A DNA stretch of 64,000 nucleotides from Schlesneria sp. DSM 10557. GTDB lineage: Bacteria > Planctomycetota > Planctomycetia > Planctomycetales > Planctomycetaceae. The DNA lies in contig NZ_CP124747.1 of assembly GCF_041860085.1 (NCBI RefSeq), positions 3,968,001 to 4,032,000 of the forward strand. The letters run 5' to 3'. How positions within the stretch are numbered: the stretch's first letter is position 1; every line of letters starts with the position of its first letter. Both the position numbers and the translations under genes were made by a program. The notes beneath the pieces were generated by a model, which saw only the letters and a program-made list of their open reading frames with translations, made no database searches and had not been told where the DNA came from. Positions 16,325-32,414 of this stretch are shown here, one piece after another.

Positions 16325-16795
16325 ATGCATTATCGAACCGCGTCCTACCTGATTGCCGCCGCGATCGGCTGTGCAATCATTCTTGTTCTCACCTGCAATG
16401 CCACCGTTGTCCCGCTGGTGGCCAGGGGAGCGGGCCCCGACGGAGTGCAGGTAACCTCCTCGGGCTGGCTCGCACTTCTTTTCTCCGCACTCGGTACAGG
16501 TGGCTTCACACTGGCGGGAATCGTCGCCGCCATCCTTTCGGTGATCACGCGAAGCCTCGGAGGGTCTCTCAGCCAGAATCAGGCGGATGAGTTCGCGACG
16601 GAGATTGTGGAGCTGACTTCTGCTTTCGCCGCCCTAATGAAAGACAAAACCAATCGCGCCGCCCAGCGGCGGTTCTTCTTCGCGTTTGTCGACGCGACCA
16701 GCCTGATCCATGGCTGCACGGCCACATACGAGAACGGCGTCGTCATCCTGCGATACACCGGACATACGGAGTCTGTGGAAGAAGCCCAGGCGTAA
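16325..16795 (+). CDS. Small two-helix membrane protein at the head of the phage-derived block
   Basis: 156 aa, ATG with GGAG 9 bases upstream. Two transmembrane helices are seen: about 7-24 (SYLIAAAIGCAIILVLTC) and about 46-72 (SGWLALLFSALGTGGFTLAGIVAAILSVI). The C-terminal half is soluble, helical then beta (LIHGCTATYENGVVILRYTG). The two-helix form and the position ahead of a lipoprotein and a possible peptidase would suit a holin-like protein, but the soluble tail is longer than in most holins. The family is not recognised. First gene after the 16174-16201 promoter. Confidence 0.7.
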   Translation: MHYRTASYLIAAAIGCAIILVLTCNATVVPLVARGAGPDGVQVTSSGWLALLFSALGTGGFTLAGIVAAILSVITRSLGGSLSQNQADEFATEIVELTSAFAALMKDKTNRAAQRRFFFAFVDATSLIHGCTATYENGVVILRYTGHTESVEEAQA

Positions 16796-16851
16796 TCCGA
16801 CACCGATCAGCATTCTCAGTTTGCACCACGACAGTCTGAAAGGAGGACAGG

Positions 16852-17166
16852 ATGCGCACGATCGCCATATCGCTTTTACTTTCGTTGCCTGGTTGCGGCC
16901 CCTTCACGACGTATCCCCAACCACACGAGCCGGTCCCGGTCCAACCAGCCGTCGTCGAGACAATCTTCACGGTCTTGGCGGACTGCATCGACGATCCGGA
17001 CACGTACCCGCACAACACGACGCAGCTCGAACTCATGCTGCGGCATCTGCGGACGCGGCAGCAGATCACCGATGAGCAGGTTGCGGCGGTGAAAGCTGTC
17101 GTGGACTGTTCGAAGGAAGTGGAGCTGACCAAGGTCGACAGCGACAAGATTCGGGGGCTGAAATGA
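16852..17166 (+). CDS. Small lipoprotein
   Basis: 104 aa. The ribosome binding site AAAGGAGGAC is close to the full consensus. A short signal peptide ends in the lipobox LPGC (about 12-15), so the mature protein would be lipid-anchored at Cys15. The remainder is Pro-rich at first (YPQPHEPVPVQP) and then helical with two further Cys. Small size, lipid anchor and a Pro-rich segment recall outer-membrane spanin subunits of phages, but similarity is only in form. It overlaps the next gene by 4 bases. Confidence 0.7.
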   Translation: MRTIAISLLLSLPGCGPFTTYPQPHEPVPVQPAVVETIFTVLADCIDDPDTYPHNTTQLELMLRHLRTRQQITDEQVAAVKAVVDCSKEVELTKVDSDKIRGLK

Positions 17167-18113
17167 GCACCAACTTCGGCTGGGTCTACGACGAAGAGCG
17201 TATCGCAGCGGCGACGGAGCGGCTTGAGAAGGCTGGCTACTCGCTGTCGTTCGATGCGGATCGTCCTCAGATGCGAGGGTTCTGGGAGCGACAGAAGTCT
17301 CGCGGGGTGACTCGCGTGCTGGCTCAGGATGATGAGCTGAAGCTGAACGGAGTACTGCGGAAGTCGAATCACCAGCGGCGCGGCACGTGCGTTCAACAGG
17401 GGAGCGAGCGGGCCATTGAGGACGTGCATATCTCGAGACTCGCGGACAAGGCGTTCATCGGTGTCTATACGCAGATCGCCGGTGAAATCATGTACGGATG
17501 GTGCCGGAACAAGAACGGCTGGTCGAAGACTCACCCCTGGGGCTGCAAGTGCGGGAACTGTCCGGACGGCATGACAGGAGTTGAGGCGGCAGAGTTCTAC
17601 GCGACCCGTGGTGTGATTCGCCGGGCGAACTATGCGGCAGCCGGGATCGATTTGAGCCAGCCACGCGAGGACCTTGCGATTCAGTGGAACAATCTCGGCG
17701 TTCCCGAAGTGCTGATCGCGGCGGCGGCCTTCCACAAGATCGAATGCCATCGGTCGATGACGTGGACCGACTACGAAGATCCGATCGCGGCCAAGAACTG
17801 GGGTCACGTCTGTATGCCCCGTTTCTTCCAGGGGACGCGGATCGATCGGTTCGGGTGCTGTGAACCAGACGGCAGCGGAGGCCACTGCACCGAGTGCTGC
17901 GGGATCGTGGTTCTGCCCTCGGGCGAAACCGCATTCATCATGCAGCAGTCGTGGGGCGAGGCGTGCAAATACCCGGTTGCGGTGCAGACGGCCAGCGGTC
18001 CCGTGAAGCTGCGGCCGGGTTCGTACGCGGTCCGCAAGGGGGTCCTGGAAGGGATCGGGCGGCAGGTGGAGTTGATTTCGTGCGATATTCCAAGCGGGAG
18101 TAGCTTTCGATGA
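17163..18113 (+). CDS. Papain-like (C1-fold) cysteine peptidase-like protein
   Basis: 316 aa, no signal peptide. I suggest a papain-like fold from the order of motifs. RRGTCVQQGSERAIED at about 77-92 resembles the Cys-helix of papain-type enzymes. A segment on GVEAAEFYATRGVI (about 139-152) matches the usual mid-domain helix, GGHCTECCGIVVL (about 238-250) offers the catalytic His, and FIMQQSWGEA (about 258-267) stands where papains have NSWG, here with Gln in place of Asn. Many other cysteines (CKCGNC) suggest disulfides or metal. In this block it could be an endolysin or a processing peptidase. Start and stop overlap both neighbours by 4 bases, so the operon is tightly coupled. The assignment is by eye and moderate. 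Confidence 0.6.
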   Translation: MSTNFGWVYDEERIAAATERLEKAGYSLSFDADRPQMRGFWERQKSRGVTRVLAQDDELKLNGVLRKSNHQRRGTCVQQGSERAIEDVHISRLADKAFIGVYTQIAGEIMYGWCRNKNGWSKTHPWGCKCGNCPDGMTGVEAAEFYATRGVIRRANYAAAGIDLSQPREDLAIQWNNLGVPEVLIAAAAFHKIECHRSMTWTDYEDPIAAKNWGHVCMPRFFQGTRIDRFGCCEPDGSGGHCTECCGIVVLPSGETAFIMQQSWGEACKYPVAVQTASGPVKLRPGSYAVRKGVLEGIGRQVELISCDIPSGSSFR

Positions 18114-19357
18114 ACTACGACTACCAATACGGACGCGATCCTTTCGATGACGACGAGATCGAGCCGGAGAAGCACGCTGCGACGAAGCTGGTGCTGATCG
18201 TTGTGATTGTCCTGCTGTCTCTGGCCGCGTTCTGCTATGCCGGGCCGAAAGAACGAGTCGCCATCGCAGAAGCGGCTGTCTGGTGTGCTCAGAACCAGTT
18301 CCCAGCCGGCGAGAACGACTACGACGGGAATAAGGCGGGGAACATTCCGGAAACTCCGGAGAGCTCGGAGCCTCGCATCGAGTACAAGGCGGGACTCAAG
18401 CCGATCACGGCGAACGTCGAAGGACTCACCGCCACGATCTACACCGCGGAGTCTCGCAACGGGGACGGCTGGTGTGCTCGCTGTAATACGCTCAAACGAG
18501 ACTGGGGCAACGGGAACGCTCAGGTGCGGCTTTTATGGTCCCGCGATCCTGTGCCTGAACGTGGAGAAGCGATCTACCCGGCTATTCGCTTTAACGGCGT
18601 CGACGGATACTCCATGCCCACCAAGGGAGGACGATACTTCATTCCCGCCACCCTTGGCGAACTTGAAGCCATCATTGAAAAGCATTCGGGTGAGGCGACG
18701 CAAGCGTCGGCAGTGGTGAGCGGATCAGCCGGGGCGATTCACGGGAAGGATCACGTCCGGGGGATCTTCACCTGGTGGCGAGCGAATATCGGCGAGGGTG
18801 TCAAAGCCGAGATGCGTTGGGACCGTTCGGGTGCTCAGTCGTTCCCGTTGCTCGCGAAAGCGGATTGGTCCCCCGTCGCAGTGTTCGGGAAATATGGGCA
18901 CATGGACCTGTCCGCAAAGGGGGCTGTCGGCCTTCCCGTAGATGCGATCGGCTTTGGCTACCGCGTGGACGGCGACGACATCACGATCGACGTTGACCCG
19001 CTGACGCTGAAGGGACTGGGGCAGGCGTTCAATCCAACTAGTAAGCGATCCTTACAAGTTGGTCCCAGTCAGATCGGTCCGGGAACGGTGCTGACAATCG
19101 TGTCTGTGGTGCGTGGCCTGTGGAGCCTGCTCAACCCGAGTGCTGATCTGCAGCTCGGCGGTAACGTCTCGGCAACAGCGGCCCTGACCGGAGACACGCT
19201 GGCGATCGACTTCCAGCAGTGCCCCTCGGTAAAGCTGGTCGCGTTGTTCACGTTTCAGTTGCGAGTCGATCGGGTCGAGATCGTGGAAGACAAGCATGTG
19301 CGGGTCGTGTTCGGTGGCTCGCGGATTATCAAGGAACGGACGTTCAGTCTGAAGTAA
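18110..19357 (+). CDS. Membrane-anchored protein with thioredoxin-like CxxC segment
   Basis: 415 aa. A charged cytoplasmic N-terminus (1-24) precedes one transmembrane helix (about 26-45, LVLIVVIVLLSLAAFCYAG). Residues about 100-180 look thioredoxin- or glutaredoxin-like: strand LTATIYTAE, then GWCARCNTLKRDW with a C-x2-C, then IYPAIRFNGV with a possible cis-proline. Residues about 190-290 contain a possible second small domain, and a helix at about 325-342 (TVLTIVSVVRGLWSLL) precedes a beta-rich end (about 350-415) with 'LQLGGNVSATAALTGD'. It may reduce or shuffle disulfides outside the membrane, perhaps of the Cys-rich neighbour at 17163; this is inference. The last gene of the tight run starting at 16852. 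Confidence 0.6.
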   Translation: MNYDYQYGRDPFDDDEIEPEKHAATKLVLIVVIVLLSLAAFCYAGPKERVAIAEAAVWCAQNQFPAGENDYDGNKAGNIPETPESSEPRIEYKAGLKPITANVEGLTATIYTAESRNGDGWCARCNTLKRDWGNGNAQVRLLWSRDPVPERGEAIYPAIRFNGVDGYSMPTKGGRYFIPATLGELEAIIEKHSGEATQASAVVSGSAGAIHGKDHVRGIFTWWRANIGEGVKAEMRWDRSGAQSFPLLAKADWSPVAVFGKYGHMDLSAKGAVGLPVDAIGFGYRVDGDDITIDVDPLTLKGLGQAFNPTSKRSLQVGPSQIGPGTVLTIVSVVRGLWSLLNPSADLQLGGNVSATAALTGDTLAIDFQQCPSVKLVALFTFQLRVDRVEIVEDKHVRVVFGGSRIIKERTFSLK

Positions 19358-19593
19358 CAAAACAACCGGTTAAGCGGTCCCGCATGAATCATGCTCGCAT
19401 GATCAAGCATGGAATGCCCACAGGCAGGGAGGCTTATACCGAGCCGGAGATTCGTTTCCGGCTGAATTTTCGGAGTCCTTCGCTTCGGGAACTCAGTTCC
19501 AACACGGAAAGGGGGGAAGCAGTGACGAGGCTTTGGAGGTGGCTGTCGCAGTTGGCAGTCGGTCGTAGTGTGGTTTTTGAGAAAGGAGACAAG

Positions 19594-19839
19594 ATGGCGG
19601 AAGAGACGATGACACTGGAGGTCCCGGAAGAACTGGCGATTCAGTTCAAAGAAGCACAAGAGGCCCTGGCTCTGGCTGAGGCGGCAGACGTTGCCGTATC
19701 CGAGGCAGAACAGGAACTCGCCGAGGCACAATCCAATCTTGAGTTTGCCGTCAGCGAACAACTGACCGCACATCAGGAGGCGAATGCCCAAGCCCAGGAC
19801 GTTCTTGAGGTCGTCCGGACACTTCTCAAGATCGCTTGA
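19594..19839 (+). CDS. Small coiled-coil protein
   Basis: 81 aa from the ATG at 19594, chosen because GAAAGGAGAC lies 4 bases upstream; the open frame extends further up but without a comparable site. The protein is acidic and almost wholly helical, with a heptad-like stretch from about 20 to 75 rich in Ala, Glu and Gln (EAADVAVSEAEQELAEAQSN). No further function can be read. The 236 bases before it contain a 7-bp hairpin (19442-19448 with 19457-19463) and no other gene. Confidence 0.7.
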   Translation: MAEETMTLEVPEELAIQFKEAQEALALAEAADVAVSEAEQELAEAQSNLEFAVSEQLTAHQEANAQAQDVLEVVRTLLKIA

Positions 19840-19967
19840 TCCCGATCTTCGCTGAAATGGAACCGCGCCGCGACTGGGAGAGAAGATGCTCCACGGCCCA
19901 CAGTCGCGGCGCCTTTTGACTCGCTACGAAATGTTAGATCAGCCTTCGCCAAACGACAGGAAGACAG

Positions 19968-20315
19968 ATGTCAGAACCAAGCCAATCCCGTCAGCCCATC
20001 ACGGTCGATTACTTCAGTCCCTGGGAACGACGCCTGGAAAAGCACGGGTGGCCCACGCTGCTCTTGATTCTTGTCGGCCTGTTCCTCTGGCGGTTCTCGG
20101 ACTGGTTTCAGCCCAAGATCGACGAGGCGATTAATGCCCATTTCCGATTTATGGAAGCAGTAAAATCGACACAGGAACAACAGGCCATTAACGGACACGA
20201 GCTGGCCACGCAGCAGACACGAATCAGTCAAATCCTGGACCGGCAGGAGCGCCGGGACGAAGAGATGGCAGATCGAATCAAGGACGTTCACAAAGCGGTG
20301 ATGAATCCGAAGTAA
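19968..20315 (+). CDS. Small membrane protein with coiled-coil tail
   Basis: 115 aa; AGGAAGAC ribosome binding site. A single transmembrane helix at about 28-44 (WPTLLLILVGLFLWRFSDWF) is followed by a long amphipathic helix (about 50-112, EQQAINGHELATQQTRISQILDRQERRDEEM). The layout, one N-terminal anchor plus a coiled coil, is like inner-membrane spanin subunits or phage membrane accessory proteins. Not recognised by family. Confidence 0.7.
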   Translation: MSEPSQSRQPITVDYFSPWERRLEKHGWPTLLLILVGLFLWRFSDWFQPKIDEAINAHFRFMEAVKSTQEQQAINGHELATQQTRISQILDRQERRDEEMADRIKDVHKAVMNPK

Positions 20316-20797
20316 CAACGAGGTGCCGAACGCACCTTCCCTATCAAACGGGTTCAAGAATCAAGCCTGCGAGGCACCGAAACTCCCGTGGGAAATTGCG
20401 ATCAAATACAGCAGGCTGCGGAAGCCTTTTCGCCCGCTGAAGCGATCAACTTTGCTTCAGCACCTGAAGCAATTTCATCCACAACAACTGCAACGCGAGT
20501 CGACGCTCAGTTGTCCGTGCGATGCGCCGTCCGCCAGAAAAGCCCGCGGCAGCGGAGGCGACGGCAAGACGATTCCATGCGTAATCGATACAAGCCACCC
20601 TCGCCTGACAATGAATTCATCACAAATGATCGAGAAAGACTTTTCTCAATCGGAATATCGCATCATAGTGGCATTTTGCGACACAGAGGGACAATCAGCG
20701 TTCAAATCACCATCCTGCCTGGAAAACTTGAATGAGAACGCGACCACGAAGAACAGCACGACCTACTCAGCACCGATTGAGTATCGGAAGGGAAAAT
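20316..20797. other. 482-base intergenic region in the phage-derived block
   Basis: No convincing gene. Two small hairpins: AGGTGC against GCACCT at about 20321-20336, just after the stop of the preceding gene, and GCTGAAGC (20436-20443) against GCTTCAGC (20454-20461). The gap may separate the early small genes from the beta-helix genes. Confidence 0.4.
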
Positions 20798-22192
20798 ATG
20801 CAGCCAGTGGTCCTGATTTGCGGAATCCTGCTCGCTTCAACATTGGCATTTGCTGATGACGCTCCTTCAACTGCCACAGCCAAGCCATCCTCCGGCAGGG
20901 GTAAAGTCTGGTACCTGGACCCCGAAAAAGGGAGCACCCCTGTGAACGCCAGAGACCTCAAAAAAGGGGATGGCTCCAAAGAGAACCCCTGGGGCACTTG
21001 GGAAAGCGTGGTGAATGCCCGCCTGATCAACGGATCGAACCCGTCCAAAGGAAAAATCCACGCGGGTGACACCATCCGGCTGAGAACGGGAAATCATGGC
21101 CGAATCGCGATCCAGGGTGCTGACTATACGGCAACGTCGATGATCACCGTCGAAGCAGACGAAGGGCACAAGCCCGTCGTCACCCAGTTTCTGGGTGGAG
21201 CGGGTATCAAGAACTGGACTTTCCGGAACATCGCTTTCCACTGCACCGATGGGGAACTCGTCAAGTACTTCATGATCTTCCGCCTCTCCGATGCGTCGGA
21301 TGTTGTGATTGAAAAATGTTCGTTCAGAACAGCCGGAGATGCTACGAAGTGGAAGGATAAGGAGTGGGAAACGATGTGTCCCTGGTACGGCCTTTGGGTG
21401 AAAGGTCGCAATCTCAGGATCGCCGAGAATCATGTTTTTGGTGTCGAGAACTGCATCGCCGTCGACGGGGATGAAATCGAGATCGACAACAACCACCTTG
21501 AGTACTTCATCAACGATGGGATCGAGCACACCGCCAGCAATCTCAAGATCACCCGCAATCGAATCACCGATCTTTACGACCTGAAGTCCAACGAGTTCCA
21601 CCACGACGGGATGCAGGGTTGGAATTTCAAGAAAGAACCTCTGTCGAACGTCGTGATCGACAGTAACTACGTGGCCTTCTCGACCGGCAAATATGAGGCG
21701 GTCCCGCCGATCAGCGAAGCGGTCTTCCAGGGAATTGTGATCTTCGACGGTCAGTTCGAGAACGTGAAGGTTTCGAACAACTTCATCCTGGTCACCGCCT
21801 TCCACGGGGTCGGTCTCTACGGCGTGCACGACTGCGTGATTGAGAACAACACTGTCATCTACCAGGGAGACGCCTCGCGGGCTCCGTGCTGGATCGGCGT
21901 GTTCTCCCGCCGGGCCACCGAAGGCGCCTCCGAACCAAAGAACGTCCTTGTGAAGAACAATATCGCGCCGACTTACAACCTGTTCGAGCGTGGGATTGAG
22001 GTCGAGAATAATTTCTCGTTTCGAGTTCCACCCAAGCCTTGGGACAAGTCAGTCCAGGTCGTGAAACCAGAGAAGACCTTCAAAAAGTTTAATCTTGAAA
22101 AGGCGGATTTCGATCTGGATATCCGGGAAGAAAGCCCTGCTGCCGGGAAGGTGAAGACCACCCGGGTCAACCCCGCAGGGGCACGTCAATAG
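20798..22192 (+). CDS. Secreted right-handed parallel beta-helix protein
   Basis: 464 aa from the ATG at 20798, with GGAAGGG upstream and a clean signal peptide (MQPVVLICGILLASTLAFA); an upstream start at 20732 would spoil it. Residues about 35-80 resemble the N-terminal cap of chondroitinase B/pectate-lyase-like proteins (VWYLDPEKGS...GSKENPWGTWESVVNA). Repeated beta-helix rungs follow, such as VVIEKCSFR, LRIAENHVFGVENCI, LKITRNRITDL, VVIDSNYVAFS and CVIENNTVIYQG. It could bind or cleave an acidic polysaccharide. A Sec signal is unexpected for a phage tail spike, which suggests a secreted moron or a captured host gene. Confidence 0.82.
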   Translation: MQPVVLICGILLASTLAFADDAPSTATAKPSSGRGKVWYLDPEKGSTPVNARDLKKGDGSKENPWGTWESVVNARLINGSNPSKGKIHAGDTIRLRTGNHGRIAIQGADYTATSMITVEADEGHKPVVTQFLGGAGIKNWTFRNIAFHCTDGELVKYFMIFRLSDASDVVIEKCSFRTAGDATKWKDKEWETMCPWYGLWVKGRNLRIAENHVFGVENCIAVDGDEIEIDNNHLEYFINDGIEHTASNLKITRNRITDLYDLKSNEFHHDGMQGWNFKKEPLSNVVIDSNYVAFSTGKYEAVPPISEAVFQGIVIFDGQFENVKVSNNFILVTAFHGVGLYGVHDCVIENNTVIYQGDASRAPCWIGVFSRRATEGASEPKNVLVKNNIAPTYNLFERGIEVENNFSFRVPPKPWDKSVQVVKPEKTFKKFNLEKADFDLDIREESPAAGKVKTTRVNPAGARQ

Positions 22193-22464
22193 CAGTGCGA
22201 ACGGTACGGCAAGGTTGCCGGTAATCTCGCACTCCATCTGAAGCGGGCACCCCTCACGGTGCTGAGGACAGCGACGCAAGTCTCGTGAAGACTGTGTGAG
22301 GGTGGGTCCGTGCGCGCCTGGCGCACAGTGACCACGGGAACGGCACGGGCCGTGACAATCTGACGTGCGTTTAGAGACAGACATCTCTCCCGAACACTCG
22401 CGGGATCGACTCAGTTTTGAGGCAGAGATCGACAACGTTCTCGCTTTCGACAAGGGATTAATCG

Positions 22465-25026
22465 ATGGCAACGGGCAGTATTCTGGGGGTGAATATTCTG
22501 ACGAATGGAGCATTCGCCGATATCACGATTGAAGGGTTGAGTACGGGGGGGACGTACGATTTCGGTCTCGGCCCTGGCAATCATCCTGCAACGGGTTCCC
22601 CGAAGGTGGTGTTTCATGTGGTGTCTCAGGGCTTTACGAACGGCGTGCTGGGAACGCGCACGCGTACGATTTACGGGACATATTGGGTACGCAAACCTTT
22701 TTCCGTCTCTGGAAACGAATTCACTGCGCAAGAATCAATGACCGGAACGGACGTCACCGTCCGCATCGCATTGAGTGAGAGTATTTATGACTCGGACAAT
22801 AACACTGGAGGAACAGGTGGTCATTCCGGGGTGGCACCGACCGTCACCATTGCGTCGGGGTTCTACACCGCTGGCGGAACACCCAACCTTCCGACCACGT
22901 CGTTTGCTGTCACGAACAACTCGACACTCGCTTACCCACGAGTCATTGGAAACATTTCACGCCCGATCGCGTATGAAAAGGTGGGTACGACGTGGCGCGT
23001 TGCCGTCGCGGTGTTCCATGGTCATGCGATGCAAGGTCAGCAAGTCGACTGCGTCAAATTCACGGCGGCCGATGCCAGTGGACATTCCACTTCAGCCACG
23101 GTCAATGCAGCCACAATCGATTCAACATACGGTGACGCGGTTCCCGTGATCGAGCATCTTGCAGACCTGAACACCAGTGGCTTTACGCAAGGTGACATTG
23201 GCACCCTTCACTATATCGCCTATCCCTGGATCGGAAACGGCGCAAGTGTTCTGGATACTGCCGGAACGACCAGCGGCAGCATTCCCGGGACTGGCTCGGC
23301 AGCCGCGCCGTCTCCTTACTATGGTCCGATATCCTTCGTCTGTGACCCGGCAGGCACCTACTGTCGATCTTACGTCGTGGTCGATGCAGCCAACGGCAAT
23401 GACGGCACCGGCGCGGTTGGATTGGGGGTACCGGAGTCGACGGCCCCTCCCGCCCCCTACGCGACGATCTCCGGTGCCTATAACGCTCTGCGAACCTACA
23501 ACAACTCAAACTATGGCAGGAATAACTGCGGGGGCTCGACGATCTATCTGAAGGACAATGCGGGCGAAGTGAACAACTTTGCCTGGCTCGGCGGAACACC
23601 GACAATCGGCACCCGTCCCGCCTGTGTCTTGACGATCACGCGGTTCCCGGGACACAGCCGCGACAACGTCGTCGTCTCCAGTTCCAGTGGAGGAAAGAAC
23701 GCGGGAGAACTGGTGAGCCTGGTGGGAGTGAAGCTCACGGCAACGAATGCTGTCGGAGTCTTCGACCCCTCTACTGCAACGTCGTACATGCTGTTCGACC
23801 AATGCGAGTTTAATGTTTCCGTGATCCCGACGATCTATCGAATCGGGGTCTGGCACATGACTCGGTGTCGAATTCTCAATTTCACCCAGGGCTGGACGAA
23901 CTATGGAGCGGTCAATGCCTCTCCGGGACTCTGTCGCGGCAACACGATCGTCGATAGTTGCACCAGCCTGGGAGCCAACTCTGCCTATACGGTGCTGGGG
24001 AATCTGAAAACATCTCCGCTCGCCCACAGCATCGGAGCGGCTCTCACGGGGGCGGCCCCCAACTCACAGAATATTGTCGTCGCCTACAACCGCATTACCG
24101 CCGGAAACACAAACGCGGCGATCCTTCGTGGCGGTGAGAACGTCAATCCGCACGGGTCGGCGTTTGTGCAGAACGTCCTTGAAAACTGCAACAACCTGTC
24201 CCCTGCTGTTCAGATCGCGGCCGATCGCAGCAACACCCACGCAAATAACATTCTGCTCGTTCACAACGTCGTCGTCGGGCAACGATGCTCACTCGCCTAT
24301 AACGAGTACGGCGCAGCGGGCTACGACAGGTTGAACTGGTTCATCAAGAACAATGCCGCAGACGACTTCAACATTAAGTCGGACACGTTCCTGGGAGTGA
24401 ATTCCAGCGGTACACGAACATTCAATGCAGGGACAGTGACAGTCACGGTGACTCAAAGTGGTCATCAATACCTGAATGGAGACCTGCTTTACATCACCTC
24501 CGTGGTGCCGGCGGCCTATAAAACAGATGGGGCTGTGATCAGCAATGTGACCGCTAACACGTTCCAGTATTCGTTCGCCTCTGCCAGTGACCCCGGCCCC
24601 ATCACATCGATTACTGTCGCGCCGCATCCCGCGAGAATCAGGAACTGGCCCGTCGTTTACGGCGTGAACTCAACGGGAAACGTCTGGGCCGAAACGGCAG
24701 GAATCGGCGCCGCGACGGACTTCATGCCCAATTTCACTGGACTCAAATGCCAGCCGCCTACGGTCTTCAGTGAGCCCCCCAAGTCCTTACCCAACACCAT
24801 CACCTACCTCAAATTCGTCAACCGCAGAAGTTTCAACGGAACAACAACCGGCACTGGGGGGGGTGACTATCACCTTCAGCCTGACTCACCCGCAGTCGGA
24901 AACACGATCGACTGGGTCCTGCCCTACGGTCTCGACGGCAAGCCAAGAAAACCCAATGGAGCAGCTGGGGCATACGAATACTCTGACTCTGCTGGACTGA
25001 TGCTTCGTAGAAGGAGAATGAAATGA
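22465..25026 (+). CDS. Phage tail-fibre/spike-like beta-helix protein
   Basis: 853 aa without signal peptide. The N-terminus is a beta-rich region (1-120), then linkers and repeated strands rich in Thr, Ser, Asn and Gly. Residues about 310-600 look like a beta-helix (SYVVVDAANGNDGTGAVGLG, YATISGAYNALRTY, TIVDSCTSLGANS, IVVAYNRITAG, ILLVHNVVVGQ). Residues about 650-705 resemble a small repeated module found in phage structural proteins (GTVTVTVTQSGHQYLNGDLL, ITSVV, ANTFQYSF). The composition and absence of a signal fit a virion receptor-binding protein. It overlaps the next gene by 4 bases. Confidence 0.7.
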   Translation: MATGSILGVNILTNGAFADITIEGLSTGGTYDFGLGPGNHPATGSPKVVFHVVSQGFTNGVLGTRTRTIYGTYWVRKPFSVSGNEFTAQESMTGTDVTVRIALSESIYDSDNNTGGTGGHSGVAPTVTIASGFYTAGGTPNLPTTSFAVTNNSTLAYPRVIGNISRPIAYEKVGTTWRVAVAVFHGHAMQGQQVDCVKFTAADASGHSTSATVNAATIDSTYGDAVPVIEHLADLNTSGFTQGDIGTLHYIAYPWIGNGASVLDTAGTTSGSIPGTGSAAAPSPYYGPISFVCDPAGTYCRSYVVVDAANGNDGTGAVGLGVPESTAPPAPYATISGAYNALRTYNNSNYGRNNCGGSTIYLKDNAGEVNNFAWLGGTPTIGTRPACVLTITRFPGHSRDNVVVSSSSGGKNAGELVSLVGVKLTATNAVGVFDPSTATSYMLFDQCEFNVSVIPTIYRIGVWHMTRCRILNFTQGWTNYGAVNASPGLCRGNTIVDSCTSLGANSAYTVLGNLKTSPLAHSIGAALTGAAPNSQNIVVAYNRITAGNTNAAILRGGENVNPHGSAFVQNVLENCNNLSPAVQIAADRSNTHANNILLVHNVVVGQRCSLAYNEYGAAGYDRLNWFIKNNAADDFNIKSDTFLGVNSSGTRTFNAGTVTVTVTQSGHQYLNGDLLYITSVVPAAYKTDGAVISNVTANTFQYSFASASDPGPITSITVAPHPARIRNWPVVYGVNSTGNVWAETAGIGAATDFMPNFTGLKCQPPTVFSEPPKSLPNTITYLKFVNRRSFNGTTTGTGGGDYHLQPDSPAVGNTIDWVLPYGLDGKPRKPNGAAGAYEYSDSAGLMLRRRRMK

Positions 25027-25802
25027 TTTTTGATAGCGGTGCCACGAATCAGTCAATCGATGTTCAGATTGTCGACGACTCGGGCTTGCCTGTGACAGGT
25101 CTGCTGGCGGCGGGCTTCCCGACACTGAAGTACTCGACAGCCGGCGCCCATGCGGATGTGACATTTCCGGCACTGACAGACCTGGCCGCAATCACGACCG
25201 GATACACTTCCGGGGGAGTGAAGGAACGAGGCGAAGGGGTCTATCGCCTTGATTTGCCCGATGCAATCTTCGCGGCGGCCGGACAGGTCAGAATCCGGGG
25301 CGAAGCCAGTGGCAAGCATCTGATTGTCGATACGATCGAGATCGCTCCTCCGGTCAACACGGTCCGACTGAACGGGGCTTCGCAAACGGCGAGAGACATC
25401 GGCGCGAGCGTTTTGCTTTCTCCCGGCACAGGAGCAGGCCAGGTATTGCTGACGGCGGGTGCGATCGAGACGACCGATTCGGCCTCGGTCGCAGCGATCA
25501 AAGATAAGACCGACAACCTGCCTGCGAATCCTGCAGCAGCAGGTTCACAGATGGATCTCGTCGATGCCCCTAACGCAACCGCGATCGCGTCGATCGTCAC
25601 CGCCATTATGAATGGAGGATCGATCGACGGAGCCACGCTGCAGGGTGTTTTGCGACTCATCGCCGCTGCCGTGATCGGCAAGGTGGCGGGCCTGCCGGGA
25701 ACGATCGTGACCCAACGGGCCATCGACGACAGCAAAGTCCGTTTGTCGCTGACGCTCGACAGCAGCGGCAACATCACCTCGGTCATTACCGACGCAACGT
25801 GA
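25023..25802 (+). CDS. Beta-sandwich phage appendage-like protein
   Basis: 259 aa, starting inside the stop of the tail-fibre-like gene. The first 110 residues form a beta-sandwich-like segment (SIDVQIVDDSGLPVTGLLAAGFPTLKY spread over several strands, then GVYRLDLPDAIFAAAGQVRIRGEAS). This is similar in outline to N-terminal domains of phage baseplate or collar proteins. A linker (KDKTDNLPANPAA) and a helical part follow, and the C-terminus ends in a beta-hairpin (VRLSLTLDSSGNITSVIT). Family membership is not certain. Confidence 0.6.
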   Translation: MIFDSGATNQSIDVQIVDDSGLPVTGLLAAGFPTLKYSTAGAHADVTFPALTDLAAITTGYTSGGVKERGEGVYRLDLPDAIFAAAGQVRIRGEASGKHLIVDTIEIAPPVNTVRLNGASQTARDIGASVLLSPGTGAGQVLLTAGAIETTDSASVAAIKDKTDNLPANPAAAGSQMDLVDAPNATAIASIVTAIMNGGSIDGATLQGVLRLIAAAVIGKVAGLPGTIVTQRAIDDSKVRLSLTLDSSGNITSVITDAT

Positions 25803-25871
25803 TGAAACCGAACGGGGTCGAAACTCCATCCAGATCAGGCACCAACAAGGTGAAGAGAGGTAGAAGTCAAC

Positions 25872-26759
25872 GTGGTTGCTCGTTTTGCTATTCCACTGGT
25901 GTTGTCCAGGCGTCGACTCTCGATACCTAAACCGGTCATCACGCCCGGTTCAGGAATTGTTGACATCATTCGTGTGACAGGGCAGGCGCTGAAATGGTTG
26001 CGCCCGGGGGACACCTGTTACGGAGAGTTTCAGATTCGAAACCCGACGACAGGTGTGCTGACATCGCCCGACAATATCGACGAACCGGCAATCGAGGTCT
26101 TGCGGAATAACGTGGTCGATATCGGAATCGAAGTCGTCGTGTCGGCGGCGTCAACGGGGCGTTACCGCTATCACTTTACTGTCCCGGGTGACTACCTCGC
26201 AGGTGACTTTGTCGCCGGCGTCGCCTCCGCCACGGTGGACGAGCATCTGGACATCGCGACTCTCGTCGACACTCGGCTCGTGGGCGTGGATTGGACGAAC
26301 CCCGGCGGGGGAAGCGGCGGAACCATCCTGAATAACATCACGATTCCTGCTGCGGTCGCCCAGGCATCACTCGTCGCGGCTCAGATCACCATTATTCGAG
26401 GAGACACCCTTGCGGTCGTTCTTCCATTGATGGGAGATATCTCCACCCGCACCAAACTTGTCTTCACCGCAAAAGTACGGTCCTCCGATCCGGACATCAA
26501 AGCCATCATTCAAGTCTCGGAAGCAGAGGGTCTGGTGCTGCTGAACGGCAGCAGCGACGTCAACCCCGCGCACGCCAGCCTTGAGGTGACAGGTGCTTCA
26601 ACCGGGCATGTGCAACTGGTCATTGATGGAGCAGAGACAGCCGAGCTAGCCATTCGAGACCTGATCTGGGATTGCCAGTTTATTACGGCAGCACGAATTT
26701 CGACTCCCATCAGCGGTGGCATCAGCATCGTCCCTGATGTGACTCAGGCGACCGCATAG
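25872..26759 (+). CDS. Beta-sandwich phage baseplate-like protein (BppU N-terminal-like)
   Basis: 295 aa from a GTG at 25872, with a GAGAGG site somewhat far upstream. Two beta-rich halves can be seen. The first (about 45-140) has RPGDTCYGEFQIRNPTTGV and YHFTVPGDYLAGDFVAGVA; the second (about 170-275) has IIRGDTLAVVLPLMGDISTRT, LVFTAKVRSSDPD and RDLIWDCQFIT. The second half follows the 'G-D-T ... L-x-F-T-x-K ... Y/W-D-x-Q' pattern known from N-terminal domains of phage upper baseplate proteins. Cytoplasmic, no signal. A gene duplication within the protein is possible. Confidence 0.55.
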   Translation: MVARFAIPLVLSRRRLSIPKPVITPGSGIVDIIRVTGQALKWLRPGDTCYGEFQIRNPTTGVLTSPDNIDEPAIEVLRNNVVDIGIEVVVSAASTGRYRYHFTVPGDYLAGDFVAGVASATVDEHLDIATLVDTRLVGVDWTNPGGGSGGTILNNITIPAAVAQASLVAAQITIIRGDTLAVVLPLMGDISTRTKLVFTAKVRSSDPDIKAIIQVSEAEGLVLLNGSSDVNPAHASLEVTGASTGHVQLVIDGAETAELAIRDLIWDCQFITAARISTPISGGISIVPDVTQATA

Positions 26760-26799
26760 TCACGGTCCTGTCGCTTCACGGATTCTCATCCAGGATTGA

Positions 26800-28296
26800 A
26801 TGACGCAGCCCCAGGTCACGAGGCTGCCTGATCGAGACAAGGACTTGTCTGATATGACCGCATCGTCAGATACAGGACGAATGGAACTTGCTGAAGTCTT
26901 ACAACCCCATCCGGGACCACAAAAGCAGTTCATCGATTCGACAGCCCAGATCGCTGTCTATGGCGGCCAGGCAGGAGGCGGAAAAACATGGGCGTTACTG
27001 GCAGAAGCAGCGCGATACATCACCGTCCCCCGCTATGGGGCGGTAATCTTTCGAAGAACATCACCGCAGATCACGAATGAAGGAGGTCTCTGGGACGAAT
27101 CCATGCTGCTGTACCCTCAGTTGAATGGAATTCCTCGACATACACTCGACTGGCAATTCCCCACGGGTGACTGCAAATTAAAGGGAGTGAATACGAAGGA
27201 TCTGGCCAATATTGGTTTTCGACACCTGCAGTACGAGAAGGACAAACTCGCCTGGCAAGGTTCACAGATCACCATGCTGGGATTCGATGAGCTGACGCAT
27301 TTCACGGAATCGCAGTTCTTCTACATGCTTTCGCGAAATCGCTCGACGTGCGGAATCCGGTCATACGTTCGTGCAACAACGAATCCGGTTCCCGAGGATG
27401 ATCCCATCGGGGGATGGGTACACCGTCTGGTGGCCTGGTGGATCGATCCCATTTCAGGCCTGGCGATTCCCGAGCGTTCGGGGGTCGTCCGGTGGTTCAT
27501 ACGATTGCGGGGTGAGTTTCACTGGAGCGATTCGAGGCGAGACTTAATTGATCGATTCGGTCGGCCTGATCTTTCTGAAGATCATGAAGAACAGCCTGTC
27601 CAGCCAAAGTCATTTACGTTTATTCCAGCCAAGTTATCCGACAACCCGGCGCTCCTCAGTAAGGACCCGATGTACCGGGCCAACCTGCTCGCCCTGCCCG
27701 AGGTCGAGCGGCAACGCCTGGCAGAAGGAAACTGGAATGCCAAAGCCCGCGCAGGACTATTTTTCAAAGTCGGTCAGATCGAAATCATAGAGGCATTGCC
27801 CGTGGGGCTTCGCTATTGCCGGGCCTGGGACCTGGCAGCAACGGACGGATCAGGCGACTACACCGTGGGGGCCAAACTGGGCATCGACTCAACGGGAATT
27901 ATCTACATTGCCGATATTCGCCGCGGTCAGTGGGAAAGCAGTTATCGCGATCAGGTCATTCGACAGTCGTCGGCTTTAGACGGTGTGTGCCGAATCCGCA
28001 TCCCGCAGGATCCTGCGGCCGCAGGTAAAAGCGAAGCGAGAAGATTGTCGCTGATGCTCTCGGGGCTTGATGTCAAAGTGGCGGTGGTCAGCGGCGACAA
28101 GCCGACCCGCGCGATCGGCTTCGCCGCACAACTGAATGCAGGAAATGTAAAGCTACTGGCGGGGACCTGGAATCAGGGATTGCTGCAGCGACTGGATGCC
28201 TTTCCCACCAAAGGGATCCCTGACGACGAAGTCGATGCTCTGGCCGATGCGTTCAATGAACTGACGGCGATGCGGCGACTGTACGTGGGAATCTGA
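26800..28296 (+). CDS. Phage terminase large subunit
   Basis: 498 aa. This is the ATP-driven DNA packaging motor with nuclease. The Walker A motif GGQAGGGKT is at 55-63, Walker B ITMLGFDE at 157-164, and the ATTNP coupling motif at about 192-196. The RNase H-like nuclease begins at RAWDLAATD (341-349), continues with YIADIRRG (about 369-376), and ends with the typical acidic GIPDDEVDALADAF. Length and order match complete TerL proteins, and all key residues are present, so nothing suggests inactivation. No small terminase subunit is recognisable before it. The portal gene follows 89 bases later. Confidence 0.93.
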   Translation: MTQPQVTRLPDRDKDLSDMTASSDTGRMELAEVLQPHPGPQKQFIDSTAQIAVYGGQAGGGKTWALLAEAARYITVPRYGAVIFRRTSPQITNEGGLWDESMLLYPQLNGIPRHTLDWQFPTGDCKLKGVNTKDLANIGFRHLQYEKDKLAWQGSQITMLGFDELTHFTESQFFYMLSRNRSTCGIRSYVRATTNPVPEDDPIGGWVHRLVAWWIDPISGLAIPERSGVVRWFIRLRGEFHWSDSRRDLIDRFGRPDLSEDHEEQPVQPKSFTFIPAKLSDNPALLSKDPMYRANLLALPEVERQRLAEGNWNAKARAGLFFKVGQIEIIEALPVGLRYCRAWDLAATDGSGDYTVGAKLGIDSTGIIYIADIRRGQWESSYRDQVIRQSSALDGVCRIRIPQDPAAAGKSEARRLSLMLSGLDVKVAVVSGDKPTRAIGFAAQLNAGNVKLLAGTWNQGLLQRLDAFPTKGIPDDEVDALADAFNELTAMRRLYVGI

Positions 28297-28385
28297 TATC
28301 GAGACTCGGTCGATCGGAAGTAGCGACGAAGGAACGCCGTACTCGAGCATTCCTGGAATGCTGTATTGAATAAAGGTTTCGAAGC

Positions 28386-29795
28386 ATGAAGTGGATGCGT
28401 TGGATTACAGGCCTATTCGGCAGCTCATCAAAGTCCGCAACCCCGCTGGGAGTGGGACTGAGAACCCTCCTCAACGGAAGTGCCCCCGGTGGCTGGGCCT
28501 CGGACCATCGTGAAGAGACTGCTCATAACACCGGCTTTAACTACATCGCAATTCACGCGATCGCTTCCCAGGTGGCGAGCGCGACAGTGACCGTTTTTGC
28601 CGACGGTGAACAGCAGACCCAGCGAAGGTCGCAGCGAAAGTCGCTGGCTGCCAGTGCAGGATCATTTCATCGGTGGAAGTCGATTTACGGGCTGGAGGAC
28701 CGGGAAACAGACCCACTTCCTGTTTCTCACCCTCTGGTCAAGTTGATGAAACGGCCCAACCCTTATGAATGCGGTTCCAGCTTCCGCTATCGCCAGGCAC
28801 AACAGATCCGGCTTACAGGGACTTGCCTTGTCTGGAATGTCCCCAGCTTCTCAGGTCCAACGTGCGAGCGGTATGTCATACCGACGGCGATGGCGTCGGC
28901 TGTCGCACCATCGCGAGAACTACCACGAGGAGGTTGGAGAATCAGTCCTGTGGCATCGCGGTATACCACGAAGGACGATCATGGCTACTTCGATTGTCCT
29001 CACTGGTACCGGATTCTTGGTCAGATCCTCGACGCCCGGCAAGTGCAGGTCATTCGCCTGCCGCACGCCTGGTTTCTGGATGACGGACAAAGCCCGCTTT
29101 CAGCCGGCGCGAAATGGATCGATGCCGGCGAAGCCGTGGATGAAGCCCGCTATCACCAGCTACGGAACGGTGTCGATCCCTCGATCGTGTGGAGCCTGCC
29201 CCCCGACGTCATGGTCGATCAGGACGAGATTGACCGCACGCAGGCCCGCATCAGTGCCAAGTACGGGGGCGCTCAGAACGTCGGGCGAGTCATGGTCGCC
29301 CAGAGTGGAACAACCATCACGCCACTGGGAACCAGCCCGAAAGAGATGTGTTATGGCGAGGGATTTCAGGACTTCAAATCGGCCATCCTGGCACTTCATC
29401 AGACCCCTCCCGTGGCTGTGGGCTTACAGGAAGCGGGCGCCTATGCAGCCTATAACGCCAGCATGAAAGCCTGGCGTCATTCCGCGATTCAGCCACTTTG
29501 TGACTTGCTCGCCGAATCCGACACCGAAGAGCTCGCTTCTCAGTTTGGCAGCGGACTTACTGTAGAGATCGAATCCAACACCGTCGACGACACTGAACTC
29601 ATCGAACAGCAGTTAAAGACCGACCTGGCCGCCAGGACGCGCACCAAAAACGAATGGCGTGCCGTCCGGGGCATGCCCCCTCTCCCCAGTCCGTTAGGAG
29701 ATGTCCTGGTCGGGACCGACTTCGACCCGACCGACTGTGCATCGCCCCAGTCGGAACCTCAGAAAAACAGCGGGAGAAGCAGCGACGGCCCTTGA
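28386..29795 (+). CDS. Phage portal protein, HK97 family
   Basis: 469 aa. The portal forms the ring through which DNA enters the capsid and to which terminase docks. Family features are NTGFNYIAIHAIASQVASATV at about 49-69, HPLVKLMKRPNPY (about 119-131) with the RQAQQIRLTGTCLVW segment next, a stem-like HAWFLDDGQSPLSAG region, and the C-terminal YNASMKAWRHSAIQPLCDLLAE with KNEWRAVRGMPPL. The length is normal, and the frame is intact. Beyond it, where protease and capsid genes would normally stand, only a small zinc ribbon is found. Confidence 0.9.
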   Translation: MKWMRWITGLFGSSSKSATPLGVGLRTLLNGSAPGGWASDHREETAHNTGFNYIAIHAIASQVASATVTVFADGEQQTQRRSQRKSLAASAGSFHRWKSIYGLEDRETDPLPVSHPLVKLMKRPNPYECGSSFRYRQAQQIRLTGTCLVWNVPSFSGPTCERYVIPTAMASAVAPSRELPRGGWRISPVASRYTTKDDHGYFDCPHWYRILGQILDARQVQVIRLPHAWFLDDGQSPLSAGAKWIDAGEAVDEARYHQLRNGVDPSIVWSLPPDVMVDQDEIDRTQARISAKYGGAQNVGRVMVAQSGTTITPLGTSPKEMCYGEGFQDFKSAILALHQTPPVAVGLQEAGAYAAYNASMKAWRHSAIQPLCDLLAESDTEELASQFGSGLTVEIESNTVDDTELIEQQLKTDLAARTRTKNEWRAVRGMPPLPSPLGDVLVGTDFDPTDCASPQSEPQKNSGRSSDGP

Positions 29796-29935
29796 TCGTC
29801 GTCTAACCGTCTCACTGAACTTCGCCTCTGGACTGGACTCAATGAACGAGCACCCCGGCCACGAGAATACCCCCTTAGGGCCCTCAGCCCATGATCGACA
29901 CTGTCCTCCTCCCCCAAGAAAGGTAACTAAGGCTT

Positions 29936-30220
29936 ATGACTGCCACATCACGACCAAAGCGAAGCTGGCGTCCCTGGTACACGCTTCCCGAGATTCCTCT
30001 TTGCGTCGACTGCAAAGTGATCTGTATCGTGAAGCACACGCACACCACTGACGATGGGAAACGAATCCAGCACCGCTACTGCCCCAAGTGTCGCAAACCC
30101 TATAAGACCACCTATCGACCGGAACCGGCCTTATCGACCGCGACGAATGATCCAACGAGTGAACCCGCATCCTCTACGGCTGCACGTCCGAGCGACGCAG
30201 GGCTTTCCAAGTCGGTCTAA
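29936..30220 (+). CDS. Small zinc-ribbon protein
   Basis: 94 aa. Residues 22-53 form a four-cysteine ribbon: CVDC (23-26) and CPKC (50-53) with a basic, His-rich loop between. The C-terminal 35 residues are Ser/Thr/Ala/Pro-rich and probably disordered. It may bind DNA or a protein partner. It is the last gene of the phage-derived block, 140 bases after the portal gene. Confidence 0.65.
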   Translation: MTATSRPKRSWRPWYTLPEIPLCVDCKVICIVKHTHTTDDGKRIQHRYCPKCRKPYKTTYRPEPALSTATNDPTSEPASSTAARPSDAGLSKSV

Positions 30221-30547
30221 ACCTCTCTGATCAGGGAAGAAGCGCGTTCCGTAACCCCATTGCGCTCAACACTTCTCATTTCTTTCGCACTCCGCTCCGA
30301 TCACGAAATGGCGTTTGGTCTCTCAAGCGACGCCTGTTGGAGCTCTCTTTGAGTGAAATTCTCTCAAATTTCGCTACAACAGGTGATACGGGCTCGTTTT
30401 GACTGCGCAGTGAGACGCTGAGTCCTCAAGATCAGTCGGCCCCCTCTTTGAAAAACGGCCGCGATTGAAGACTTGACCAACGACGCGGAACAAGACGTCG
30501 TATACAATTCCACCATCCCGGTCAGTGACGGCTTTCATGGGCGAACC
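30221..30547. other. Structured intergenic region at the right edge of the phage-derived block
   Basis: CCTGTTG (30333-30339) can pair with CAACAGG (30377-30383), enclosing a 9-bp stem at 30352-30360/30367-30375. A different pairing, TTTGAG (30348-30353) with CTCAAA (30363-30368), competes with the inner stem. No tRNA, integrase or matching attachment repeat was seen by eye. It may be a terminator for the block or a leader for the next gene. Confidence 0.4.
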
Positions 30548-31318
30548 ATGTCTGCCGAGTCGTTCCTCGGGGTCTTTCGATCTGCAATTCGGATGAATGT
30601 GATGTCTGTGGTACGTGAAATGATGAGCGAGCCGTTGAGCCAAACTCAATTTGTCGATGACACATTCCAGTATCAACCGATGCCGCCGCTTGTGCCGATC
30701 AGCATGGCGTTTGTCTGCCTTTCGCTGCTCGCCGGACTGTCCGACCTGCTTTTAATTATTCCCATGGTCGGAATTGTCCTTTCCTTCATCGGTTACTATC
30801 AGATTTCCCGTTCAAGAGGCGAATTGAGCGGGGGAGTGCTCGCACTGTCGAGCCTGGTGTTGATGCTGCTGATCTTCATCGCATTTGCTTCGCTGCACTT
30901 GCACAGCTATGCGACGGAAGTCCCCGTCGGGTATTCCCGGGTGAATTTCAATCAGGATATCTCCCAGAAGGGTTTCCCCACGGAAAACGGCCAGCCCGGC
31001 ATCCATCCCGATGTTGCAAAACTGGCTGACCAGCCGATTTATCTCAAAGGCTACATGTTTCCCTTCCGGGAAACCAAAGGGCTGAAATCGTTTGTCCTGT
31101 GTAAGGATTCAGGAGACTGCTGCTTCGGGGGCCAGCCCAAGCCGACCGACATGATCCTGATTAACATGAAGGATGGGCAAACGGTGGATTACCACGAAAA
31201 GCAACTTGTCGGGGTAGCCGGAACACTCAAAATTGAACCGACATATGACGAAAGCGGGCTGAACCCCGTCTATCAGCTCGACTGCAAGCATTTTGCACCA
31301 GCGAAAACCTGGTATTGA
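30548..31318 (+). CDS. Membrane protein with C-terminal DUF3299-like domain
   Basis: 256 aa from the ATG at 30548; a TTG at 30473 would add 25 residues. Two or three transmembrane helices lie at about 52-95 and 107-124 (FVCLSLLAGLSDLLLIIPMVGIVL; GVLALSSLVLMLLIFIAFASL). The outer C-terminal domain carries IYLKGYMFPFRETKGLKSFVLCKDSGDCCFGG, the DUF3299 pattern with a G-x-C-C-F-G core, which is likely metal- or disulfide-related. DUF3299 proteins are found often in Planctomycetes and in proteobacterial metal-handling loci. The role is unknown. A paralogous lipoprotein follows 154 bases later. Confidence 0.78.
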   Translation: MSAESFLGVFRSAIRMNVMSVVREMMSEPLSQTQFVDDTFQYQPMPPLVPISMAFVCLSLLAGLSDLLLIIPMVGIVLSFIGYYQISRSRGELSGGVLALSSLVLMLLIFIAFASLHLHSYATEVPVGYSRVNFNQDISQKGFPTENGQPGIHPDVAKLADQPIYLKGYMFPFRETKGLKSFVLCKDSGDCCFGGQPKPTDMILINMKDGQTVDYHEKQLVGVAGTLKIEPTYDESGLNPVYQLDCKHFAPAKTWY

Positions 31319-31472: not shown

Positions 31473-32414
31473 ATGCGTATCCCGGCATTTCCACACTGGA
31501 CAGCACCACGACTCGGAATTGCGCTGGTCCTCATTTTTCTGACAGGCTGTGACAAGACTGACCTGAGCGAGTATCACCCCGCAGGACAGGAAGACAAATC
31601 CAGCGCCGGGCAGAATGTCAAAGCGGATAACGCTTCTCAAACCGAAACTGAAGCTGTGACTGCAACCCCGGTCCCCGAGACCCAGGCGCCGGCGGAATCA
31701 GAGGAGCCGAGTTCTCCTGTCGTGACCACAGTCACACCTGACGAAGCGGCGACAGAGCAGAGCGAAGATGAGGTTATGGACGCTCCTGCCGCGTCGGCCC
31801 TCGTTCCTGTCAATGTCGTGGCGAGCGTCCAACAGTTGCTGAGCATCCCGAACGCCCCCTCCTCGCCCGCCACAGCCCCAGCTGTCGCGGAGAATAGCAG
31901 CACGGAGCCGCCAACATCACAGCAGGAGGACCAGCCAGACAAAACGGAGGCGAAAACAGGCCCGGGAAACGAAATTCAGCTCCTCATCAAAGAAAAGCAG
32001 TTTCAGACGGATCCCCGCACGGGGGCTCTTCGCCTGTCATTTGATGACCTGGATCTGCTCAAAGTCCTGAACATGGAACCGGTTGTTGTCAACGCCGTGG
32101 ATCTCATGCCAGACTGGCTGAAAGGACTCGACGGCAAGCAGGTGAAAGTTCGTGGCTTCATGTATCCGACATACGAGACCGAAGGGATCGAGCGTTTCGT
32201 GCTGGCTCGTGATAATCAGATCTGCTGCTTCGGCCGTGACCCAAAGATTTATGACCTGATTCAGATCGACATGAAAGCGGGCAAAACAACTCGCTACATT
32301 CCTGCAACCCGTTCTTTCGATGTGCTGGGGACGTTGCGAATCAAGATGGTCGCACCGGATGGGACCCCTTACGGGCTCTATTTCATCGAGGACGCAACCG
32401 TCATCGATCGGTGA
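31473..32414 (+). CDS. Lipoprotein with DUF3299-like domain
   Basis: 313 aa. The signal peptide ends in the lipobox LTGC (about 23-26), followed by CDK. A long Pro/Glu/Thr/Ala-rich linker (about 30-165) looks disordered and would hold the domain away from the membrane. The C-terminal DUF3299-like domain (about 175-310) has VKVRGFMYPTYETEGIERFVLARDNQICCFGR, in parallel with the preceding gene. Its end, TPYGLYFIEDATVI, is also typical. Probably works with the membrane paralogue upstream. Confidence 0.8.
   Translation: MRIPAFPHWTAPRLGIALVLIFLTGCDKTDLSEYHPAGQEDKSSAGQNVKADNASQTETEAVTATPVPETQAPAESEEPSSPVVTTVTPDEAATEQSEDEVMDAPAASALVPVNVVASVQQLLSIPNAPSSPATAPAVAENSSTEPPTSQQEDQPDKTEAKTGPGNEIQLLIKEKQFQTDPRTGALRLSFDDLDLLKVLNMEPVVVNAVDLMPDWLKGLDGKQVKVRGFMYPTYETEGIERFVLARDNQICCFGRDPKIYDLIQIDMKAGKTTRYIPATRSFDVLGTLRIKMVAPDGTPYGLYFIEDATVIDR

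Follow-up and report, generated by a model that had tools for sequence, protein, structure and literature searches.

The terminase-portal block of Schlesneria sp. DSM 10557 as the probable packaging arm of a split gene-transfer-agent-like element

Introduction

Why would a bacterial chromosome carry open phage DNA-packaging genes with no capsid genes beside them? The question is raised by a block at positions 16325-30220 of the window, the 64,000-nucleotide stretch of the Schlesneria sp. DSM 10557 chromosome analysed here (G000:C1 3,968,001-4,032,000; G000 denotes this genome, a single contig of 7.07 Mb). The block, at chromosome position 3,984,325-3,998,220, begins with a small membrane protein (g1) and has the large terminase subunit (TerL), the portal and a zinc ribbon at its 3' end. 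An initial annotation had described 13 plus-strand genes ending in a zinc ribbon, and all 13 frames are indeed open, with 4-base overlaps, also as described, at g2/g3, g3/g4 and g8/g9. Two explanations were offered at the time, a prophage cut just after the portal gene or a stable packaging-type element that takes its capsids from elsewhere. Judging from gene content, gene order and phylogeny, we consider it likely that the block is the packaging arm, probably with lysis and appendage genes, of a phage-derived, vertically inherited element resembling a gene transfer agent (GTA).

Results

A candidate particle arm on the same chromosome

Pfam and PHROG scans of the block returned no capsid, protease, integrase or repressor family, in line with the initial annotation, and likewise no tail-tube or replication family. 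The sole tail-type matches were both weak, g7 to a tail spike (E = 4e-4) and g5 to a tail fibre (E = 0.13). In GC (guanine plus cytosine) content the block (57.4%) does not stand out from its surroundings in the window (57.1%). Genome-wide, the TerL of the window is the only match to PF03237 and its portal the only match to PF04860. A chance origin of these two calls was considered and ruled out, the match E-values lying far beyond chance.

A search with the capsid protein of a sister genus led to a major capsid protein (MCP) gene in the same chromosome (G000:C1 3,828,950-3,830,242, minus strand; 51% identical), which is part of a particle arm (Table 1). Family matches in this arm include the MCP (PF05065, E = 1.5e-34), the tail tube (PF18906, E = 2.4e-21) and the connector (PHROG 442, E = 8e-23); the chaperone, tape-measure (432 aa), distal-tail, fibre and hub genes were named by position. 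Directly before the capsid gene stands the protease-like gene, which aligns with the N-terminal portion of PHROG 617 (E = 4e-8 in the relative G404); the capsid aligns with the C-terminal portion of this family. The protease-like gene matches head-maturation-protease profiles weakly (E 0.004-0.035) and has no Pfam family match. From the protease start to g1 the distance is 151,065 bases, which places the two arms about 151 kb apart. When 20 proteins from this capsid locus were searched against the window, no match was returned at E<=1e-3.

Two orphan HK97 capsid loci were also seen in G000, at about 2,799,970 (L100) and 305,430 (L101), with near-identical capsids and neighbours. Their capsids are about 30% identical to the GTA-like MCP and belong to other loci. 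Each has an integrase match 3-5 kb away and an adjoining small gene homologous to one at the end of the capsid arm, and L100 has a replication-helicase-like gene (by eye). These loci are possible satellites.

The two arms co-occur in the genus and are contiguous in one relative

Among 294 genomes of the phylum, G000 included, TerL relatives were found in three (E<=1e-20) and portal relatives in 11 (E<=1e-10), five of the latter being the sister genus at 42-43% identity. Orthologues of TerL and of the portal were each found in 7 of 14 other same-genus genomes. TerL, portal and MCP occur together in 8 of the 15 genus genomes, one has the MCP only (G398) and six have none (G397, G357, G399, G401, G403, G405). 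For the co-occurrence of TerL/portal with MCP, Fisher p = 0.0014 (15 genomes, uncorrected for relatedness).

In G404 both arms lie on one 56 kb contig, divergent and with about 4 kb between them. The order is tail ... capsid, protease on one strand, followed on the opposite strand by g1, g3, g4 ... g10, TerL, portal and zinc ribbon. G376 would have a G404-like order if the two contig ends that carry it are joined. The capsid-arm contigs of G321, G388 and G396 run 40-54 kb past the protease, with TerL and portal on other contigs. Counting G000, the arms are apart in four genomes; G402, G400 and G398 are too fragmented to place the arms relative to each other. The flanks are shared as well: the upstream flank of the capsid arm (778 aa and 612 aa genes) is common to G000, G388 and G396, its 612 aa gene being present also in G321, the tail-end flank of the G000 capsid arm is common to G321 and G376, and the gene upstream of the packaging arm (window 14067-15863) also occurs in G321. 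Single-strand orders were found in the viral contig L048 (portal - zinc ribbon - protease - MCP) and in contig L183 (TerL - portal - protease - MCP - tail), whose 'Emcibacter MAG' label is doubtful. Because of the contiguous G404 locus and these same-strand orders, the arrangement in the window is most plausibly a normal head-tail gene order that has been rearranged and split.

Further relatives of these genes were noted. G402 holds a second MCP paralogue (L141 / L180; 69-71% identical) with its own neck genes, the viral collection holds related contigs (L146 and near copies), and MCP relatives at 30-35% identity occur in records of Oscillospiraceae and other Clostridia (L186-L191, L193-L195). 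A wider genome-contig search with the portal alone returned no relative; the MCP alignment search did return records.

A related cluster with a different terminase in a sister genus

The sister genus is probably Gimesia, since three Gimesia records (L181, L185, L192) carry the same cluster, with MCP and portal 75-90% identical. Its gene order runs portal, host-like genes, protease-like gene, HK97 capsid (PF05065), connector, Phage_tail_S, tail tube and more tail genes. By eye, the host-like genes between portal and protease are aminotransferase-like and cysteine-rich in 5/5 genomes, and symporter-like in 4/5, the last being absent in G227. TerL, portal and protease are syntenic in all five, and capsid and tail are present in four. 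In the remaining genome, G238, TerL, portal and the protease-like gene are open, but neither the capsid gene nor any of the tail genes looked for is present; other genes take their place. The sister-genus portal is preceded by a different TerL (PHROG 2, E = 1e-15). Searched against G000 and five other sampled genomes of the Schlesneria genus, this TerL gave no hit at E<=1e-4.

Tyrosine integrases are distant from both arms

Integrases of PF00589 occur in all 12 genomes searched. In G000 none was found within 230 kb of either arm, the nearest lying about 230 kb from the capsid arm, and the arm-bearing contigs of G404, G321, G388, G396, G402 and G227 had no PF00589 match. On arm contigs elsewhere, the nearest match was more than 300 kb away in G376 and more than 280 kb away in the complete sister-genus genomes.

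Inheritance and selection

An rpoB tree was built from 20 of 21 genomes, G397 being left out as it had no rpoB match. The nine carriers form one rpoB clade (Shimodaira-Hasegawa-like approximate likelihood ratio test support 97), and the five non-carriers with rpoB fall outside it. Distances in Schlesneria follow those of rpoB for MCP (nine genomes, r = 0.71, 158/20,000 permutations as high) and TerL (eight genomes, r = 0.81, 104/20,000). For the sister genus the corresponding values are r = 0.94 for MCP (four genomes, 2,448/20,000; G238, which lacks an MCP, does not enter the MCP comparisons) and r = 0.78 for the portal (five genomes, 512/20,000). In approximately unbiased (AU) tests the rpoB topology was not rejected by MCP (p = 0.205) or TerL (p = 0.121).

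TerL, portal and MCP are under purifying selection between species. Nonsynonymous to synonymous substitution ratios (dN/dS, NG86) for TerL were 0.13-0.17 in Schlesneria and 0.05-0.11 in the sister genus, those for the portal 0.036-0.07, for MCP 0.02-0.09 and for rpoB 0.005-0.04; these ranges cover pairs with computable dS, several of which have dS above 1.4. With YN00 the TerL ratios came out somewhat larger, reaching 0.24. Ten of 12 TerL and portal pair values (those with G000, or G404-G376) were saturated or over 4 and were dropped.

An IS66-family insertion in the protease-like gene of this strain

The protease-like gene of G000 is split by a 1,549-base IS66-family element (PF03050) with inverted ends of 13 bases and a target duplication of 8 bases. 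Five identical full copies of the element are present in G000. No such break is seen in the eight Schlesneria-type relatives checked, namely five genomes of the genus and the contigs L144, L178 and L179, whose frames run on for 432-554 aa; that of G048 (333 aa) is likewise unbroken. The insertion is probably recent. Since an IS66 copy interrupts the protease-like gene, the element is probably unable to mature capsids, and thus to make particles, in this strain at present.

Genes of the packaging arm and its neighbourhood

Table 1 Features of the packaging arm (window positions) and of its candidate partner (chromosome positions).
Feature	Position	Strand	Observations
g1, small membrane protein (by eye), 156 aa	16325..16795	+	First gene of the arm; open frame
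g2, 104 aa, lipoprotein-like start (by eye)	16852..17166	+	Open frame; AAAGGAGG upstream
g3, 316 aa	17163..18113	+	Homologues in G404, G376, G321 at 26-28% identity
g4, 415 aa, membrane-anchored by eye	18110..19357	+	Homologues in G404, G376, G321; C-terminal domain conserved
g5, 81 aa, coiled-coil-like (by eye)	19594..19839	+	Open frame; AAAGGAG upstream
g6, 115 aa, one transmembrane stretch	19968..20315	+	Open frame
g7, 486 aa right-handed beta-helix protein, signal-peptide-like start (by eye)	20732..22192	+	PF13229, E = 3e-9
g8, 853 aa, appendage-like protein	22465..25026	+	Open frame; no significant family match
g9, 259 aa, appendage-like protein	25023..25802	+	Open frame; short match in G376
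g10, 295 aa, phage family of unknown function	25872..26759	+	PHROG 1084, E = 5e-7; directly 5' of TerL
TerL, 498 aa	26800..28296	+	PHROG 979, E = 2.7e-136; Pfam Terminase_6N and Terminase_6C
Portal, 469 aa	28386..29795	+	PF04860, E = 2.4e-31
Zinc-ribbon protein, 94 aa	29936..30220	+	Last gene of the arm
Particle arm	G000:C1 3,817,399-3,833,260	minus	Protease-like, HK97 MCP, connector, neck-like genes, tail tube

TerL had been described as intact with its motifs visible, and the motif strings are in place; we take them to have their usual functional meaning. The portal had been called full length, which is correct for the portal domain but not for the whole protein. All seven same-genus relatives have a C-terminal extension (open frames of 754 to 1014 aa, the lower figure being a frame cut by a contig end) that is missing here and likewise from the sister-genus portals. 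In the one extended protein scanned, Pfam gave nothing besides PF04860. A viral portal fusion in L006 (15999-19643) reaches 1214 aa altogether; its very long C-terminal part appears, by eye, to hold inorganic-pyrophosphatase-like and topoisomerase-IB-like domains. A homologue of g10 precedes TerL in 7/7 same-genus relatives, and a homologue of the zinc-ribbon protein (51-55% identity) lies 3' of the portal in six of the seven, the G400 contig ending inside the portal.

At the other end, a homologue of g1 opens the arm in G404, G376 and G321 (48-54% identity), and g2 had no family match in the Pfam and PHROG scans. The pattern GTC, HC, SWG in g3 may be papain-like. AlphaFold models of g3 and g4 were unusable (predicted local distance difference test scores of 37.6 and 32.8). 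By its position and make-up g6 may be holin-like, and G321 has a gene of similar make-up in the same place (by eye). Besides its weak tail-spike match, g7 is set apart from its neighbours by gaps of 416 and 272 bases. At E<=1e-5 nothing in the stretches taken from the relatives matched it, those of G388, G396, G402 and G400 starting past the place of g7, and it is possibly a later insertion.

Beyond the block, window 30473-31318 and 31473-32414 are adjacent host genes that differ in size but, by eye, have similar C-terminal parts. DUF3299 is matched by the first of them only.

Discussion

A possible mode of action can be outlined from these genes. The particle arm would build a capsid and tail, the portal would serve as the DNA gate, TerL would fill the head with cellular DNA, and release of the particle would fall to g1-g6, the membrane and lysis-like genes. 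Because no integration module was found, the element would move host DNA and not itself. Assembly of the products of both arms into one particle, packaging of host DNA, release and delivery are steps that we infer, and joint packaging of arms 151 kb apart in G000 would presumably need a very large head. That members of the Schlesneria clade and of the sister genus (probably Gimesia) make working GTAs is a tentative proposal, to which we give slightly less than an even chance. They would form a Planctomycetota lineage with the two arms as separate chromosomal operons, a different terminase in each genus and a packaging arm that may persist longer than the particle arm, as in G238 and in this strain.

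Several observations weigh against reading the block as one arm of a vertically inherited GTA-like element. A small terminase gene was not recognised, and the candidate tape measure of G000 has 432 aa where four relatives have 582-754 aa. In this strain the protease-like gene is interrupted, and the portal match of G227 has one internal stop. The TerLs of the two genera belong to different families, so a single common domestication is unsupported. The absence of an integrase family from the block and from the scanned capsid-arm proteins is accompanied by a genome-wide search that covered the tyrosine type only. Within Schlesneria the fit of portal distances to rpoB is weak (eight genomes, r = 0.48, 872/20,000 permutations as high), and the portal rejects the rpoB topology in the AU test (p = 0.0064, eight taxa); because of these two results, some exchange is likely. 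The dN/dS check proposed with the initial annotation speaks to selection between species; dS is saturated for nearly all pairs with G000. No other of the eight Schlesneria rows has terminal branches as long as those of G000 for TerL and portal (0.295 each; next G376 at 0.24-0.25). As the rpoB branch of G000 (0.051) is also the longest among carriers, these long branches need no relaxed selection, though some long-term relaxation in this lineage is possible.

These weaknesses bear on what else the block might be. A truncated, decaying prophage whose capsid and tail genes had been deleted, leaving TerL and portal as leftovers, would fit the half module set of the window, the insertion in the partner protease-like gene, the long branches of TerL and portal, and the case of G238, which lost capsid and tail and kept TerL, portal and protease. 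The other half is nevertheless present on the same chromosome, both arms persist in over half of the genus genomes, purifying selection acts between species on genes whose frames here are all open, and the long branches have their counterpart in rpoB. We therefore regard decay as quite improbable, and the initial suggestion of a prophage cut after the portal is not upheld, as the second half has been located, both halves occur in relatives, and purifying selection acts on TerL and portal between species. That annotation had named what would overturn its reading of a stable element, namely a normal prophage in a close relative of which the block is plainly the left half, with the capsid genes deleted only here and selection on TerL and portal relaxed. 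The outcome is mixed. The block does correspond to half of a contiguous locus in G404; however, the G404 contig has no tyrosine integrase, the carriers are one host clade, and the capsid genes of G000 are separated rather than deleted. An ordinary temperate phage common in the clade, excising and replicating with genes located elsewhere, would account for the phage-like nature of the recognised modules, the disagreement between portal and host trees, the related contigs of the viral collection (L146 and near copies) and the second MCP copy in G402. It is unlikely, given that no tyrosine integrase lies near either arm, that the arms are far apart here and on different contigs in G321, G388 and G396, that host-like genes stand between portal and protease in every sister-genus genome, and that presence follows one host clade. 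Nor do structural genes accompanied by an integrase, as in a temperate prophage, appear in the block, in the scanned capsid-arm proteins or, for PF00589, near the arms.

Domestication for another job, such as a killing particle, DNA export or an anti-phage decoy, for which TerL and portal would have been retained, is improbable in our view. TerL and portal are open in G238, which has no capsid, and here beside an interrupted protease-like gene, as such a role would allow, but conservation of TerL, portal, protease and capsid would presumably be needless in headless killing particles, and TerL, portal and capsid all co-occur and are under purifying selection. Satellites (phage-inducible chromosomal islands (PICI), capsid-forming PICI (cf-PICI) and similar) have an integrase and their own replication module along with hijacking or packaging genes. 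Taken alone, the window block, with packaging genes and no capsid genes, could pass for a satellite that borrows a helper phage's capsid for its own packaging, and two other loci of G000 carry an orphan capsid gene. We consider this highly improbable: family scans of the block gave neither module, no tyrosine integrase was found in it or within 230 kb, and the capsid partner that tracks TerL and portal across the genus is no helper but an operon inherited with the chromosome. The initial idea of a stable packaging-type element with capsids from elsewhere comes close in its GTA-like form, with the capsid genes elsewhere in the same chromosome, in what looks like the second arm of one element, and finds no support as a satellite.

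The GTA-like reading can be set beside known systems. The features defining GTAs include, according to PMC9662315, phage-derived genes, endogenisation at more than one locus and mostly vertical inheritance. The same definition further has GTAs package mainly random DNA of the host, leave their own genome incompletely packaged and bring DNA into other cells, properties that the present element would share if the GTA reading is right. In the present case, Pfam and PHROG families identify caudoviricete-derived proteins (TerL, portal, HK97 capsid, tail tube and connector), the two separated arms with no tyrosine integrase within 230 kb point to full endogenisation at several loci, and the single rpoB clade, the MCP and TerL topologies and the flank synteny, though not the portal, indicate mostly vertical inheritance. 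By its genes, the putative element fits the sequence-testable part of the published definition (PMC9662315). The open-licence literature searched, mostly at title and abstract level, yielded no planctomycete GTA locus, and the element would add a candidate GTA system in Planctomycetota. Its relatives at different stages (contiguous, split, with a differing TerL, with the capsid lost or with the protease interrupted) make the domestication and decay of phage particles testable, and the 'orphan' terminase-portal pair becomes explicable once the whole chromosome is considered.

Among named phages, the top-ranked TerLs are those of Rhizobium phages RHph_N28_2 and RHph_TM3_3_3 (45-47% identity); these are phage records and the likeness is one of TerL only. 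The predicted prophage of Zavarzinella formosa shares a planctomycete phage-derived TerL that is discussed alongside GTAs, but it is reported in PMC7947584 as intact and near RcGTA-like TerLs (RcGTA, the Rhodobacter capsulatus GTA), and is likened here by description only. GTA activity is reported in Oscillospiraceae/Ruminococcaceae (PMC12946183). MCPs of Oscillospiraceae and other Clostridia, which may or may not belong to the reported GTA loci, are among the weaker relatives found here, and those GTAs differ in their distant sequence and other phylum. The RcGTA type (Rhodogtaviriformidae) is also from another phylum, and it differs from the present case, known from genes alone, in which packaging and particle genes form two divergent or distant operons. 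RcGTA also has protease and tail genes. Its TerL and HK97 capsid are named in the literature (PMC12946183, PMC9662315, PMC7947584, PMC12213060 or PMC13055281). With RcGTA the candidate element nevertheless shares phage-derived genes, a location at more than one locus and mostly vertical inheritance (PMC9662315).

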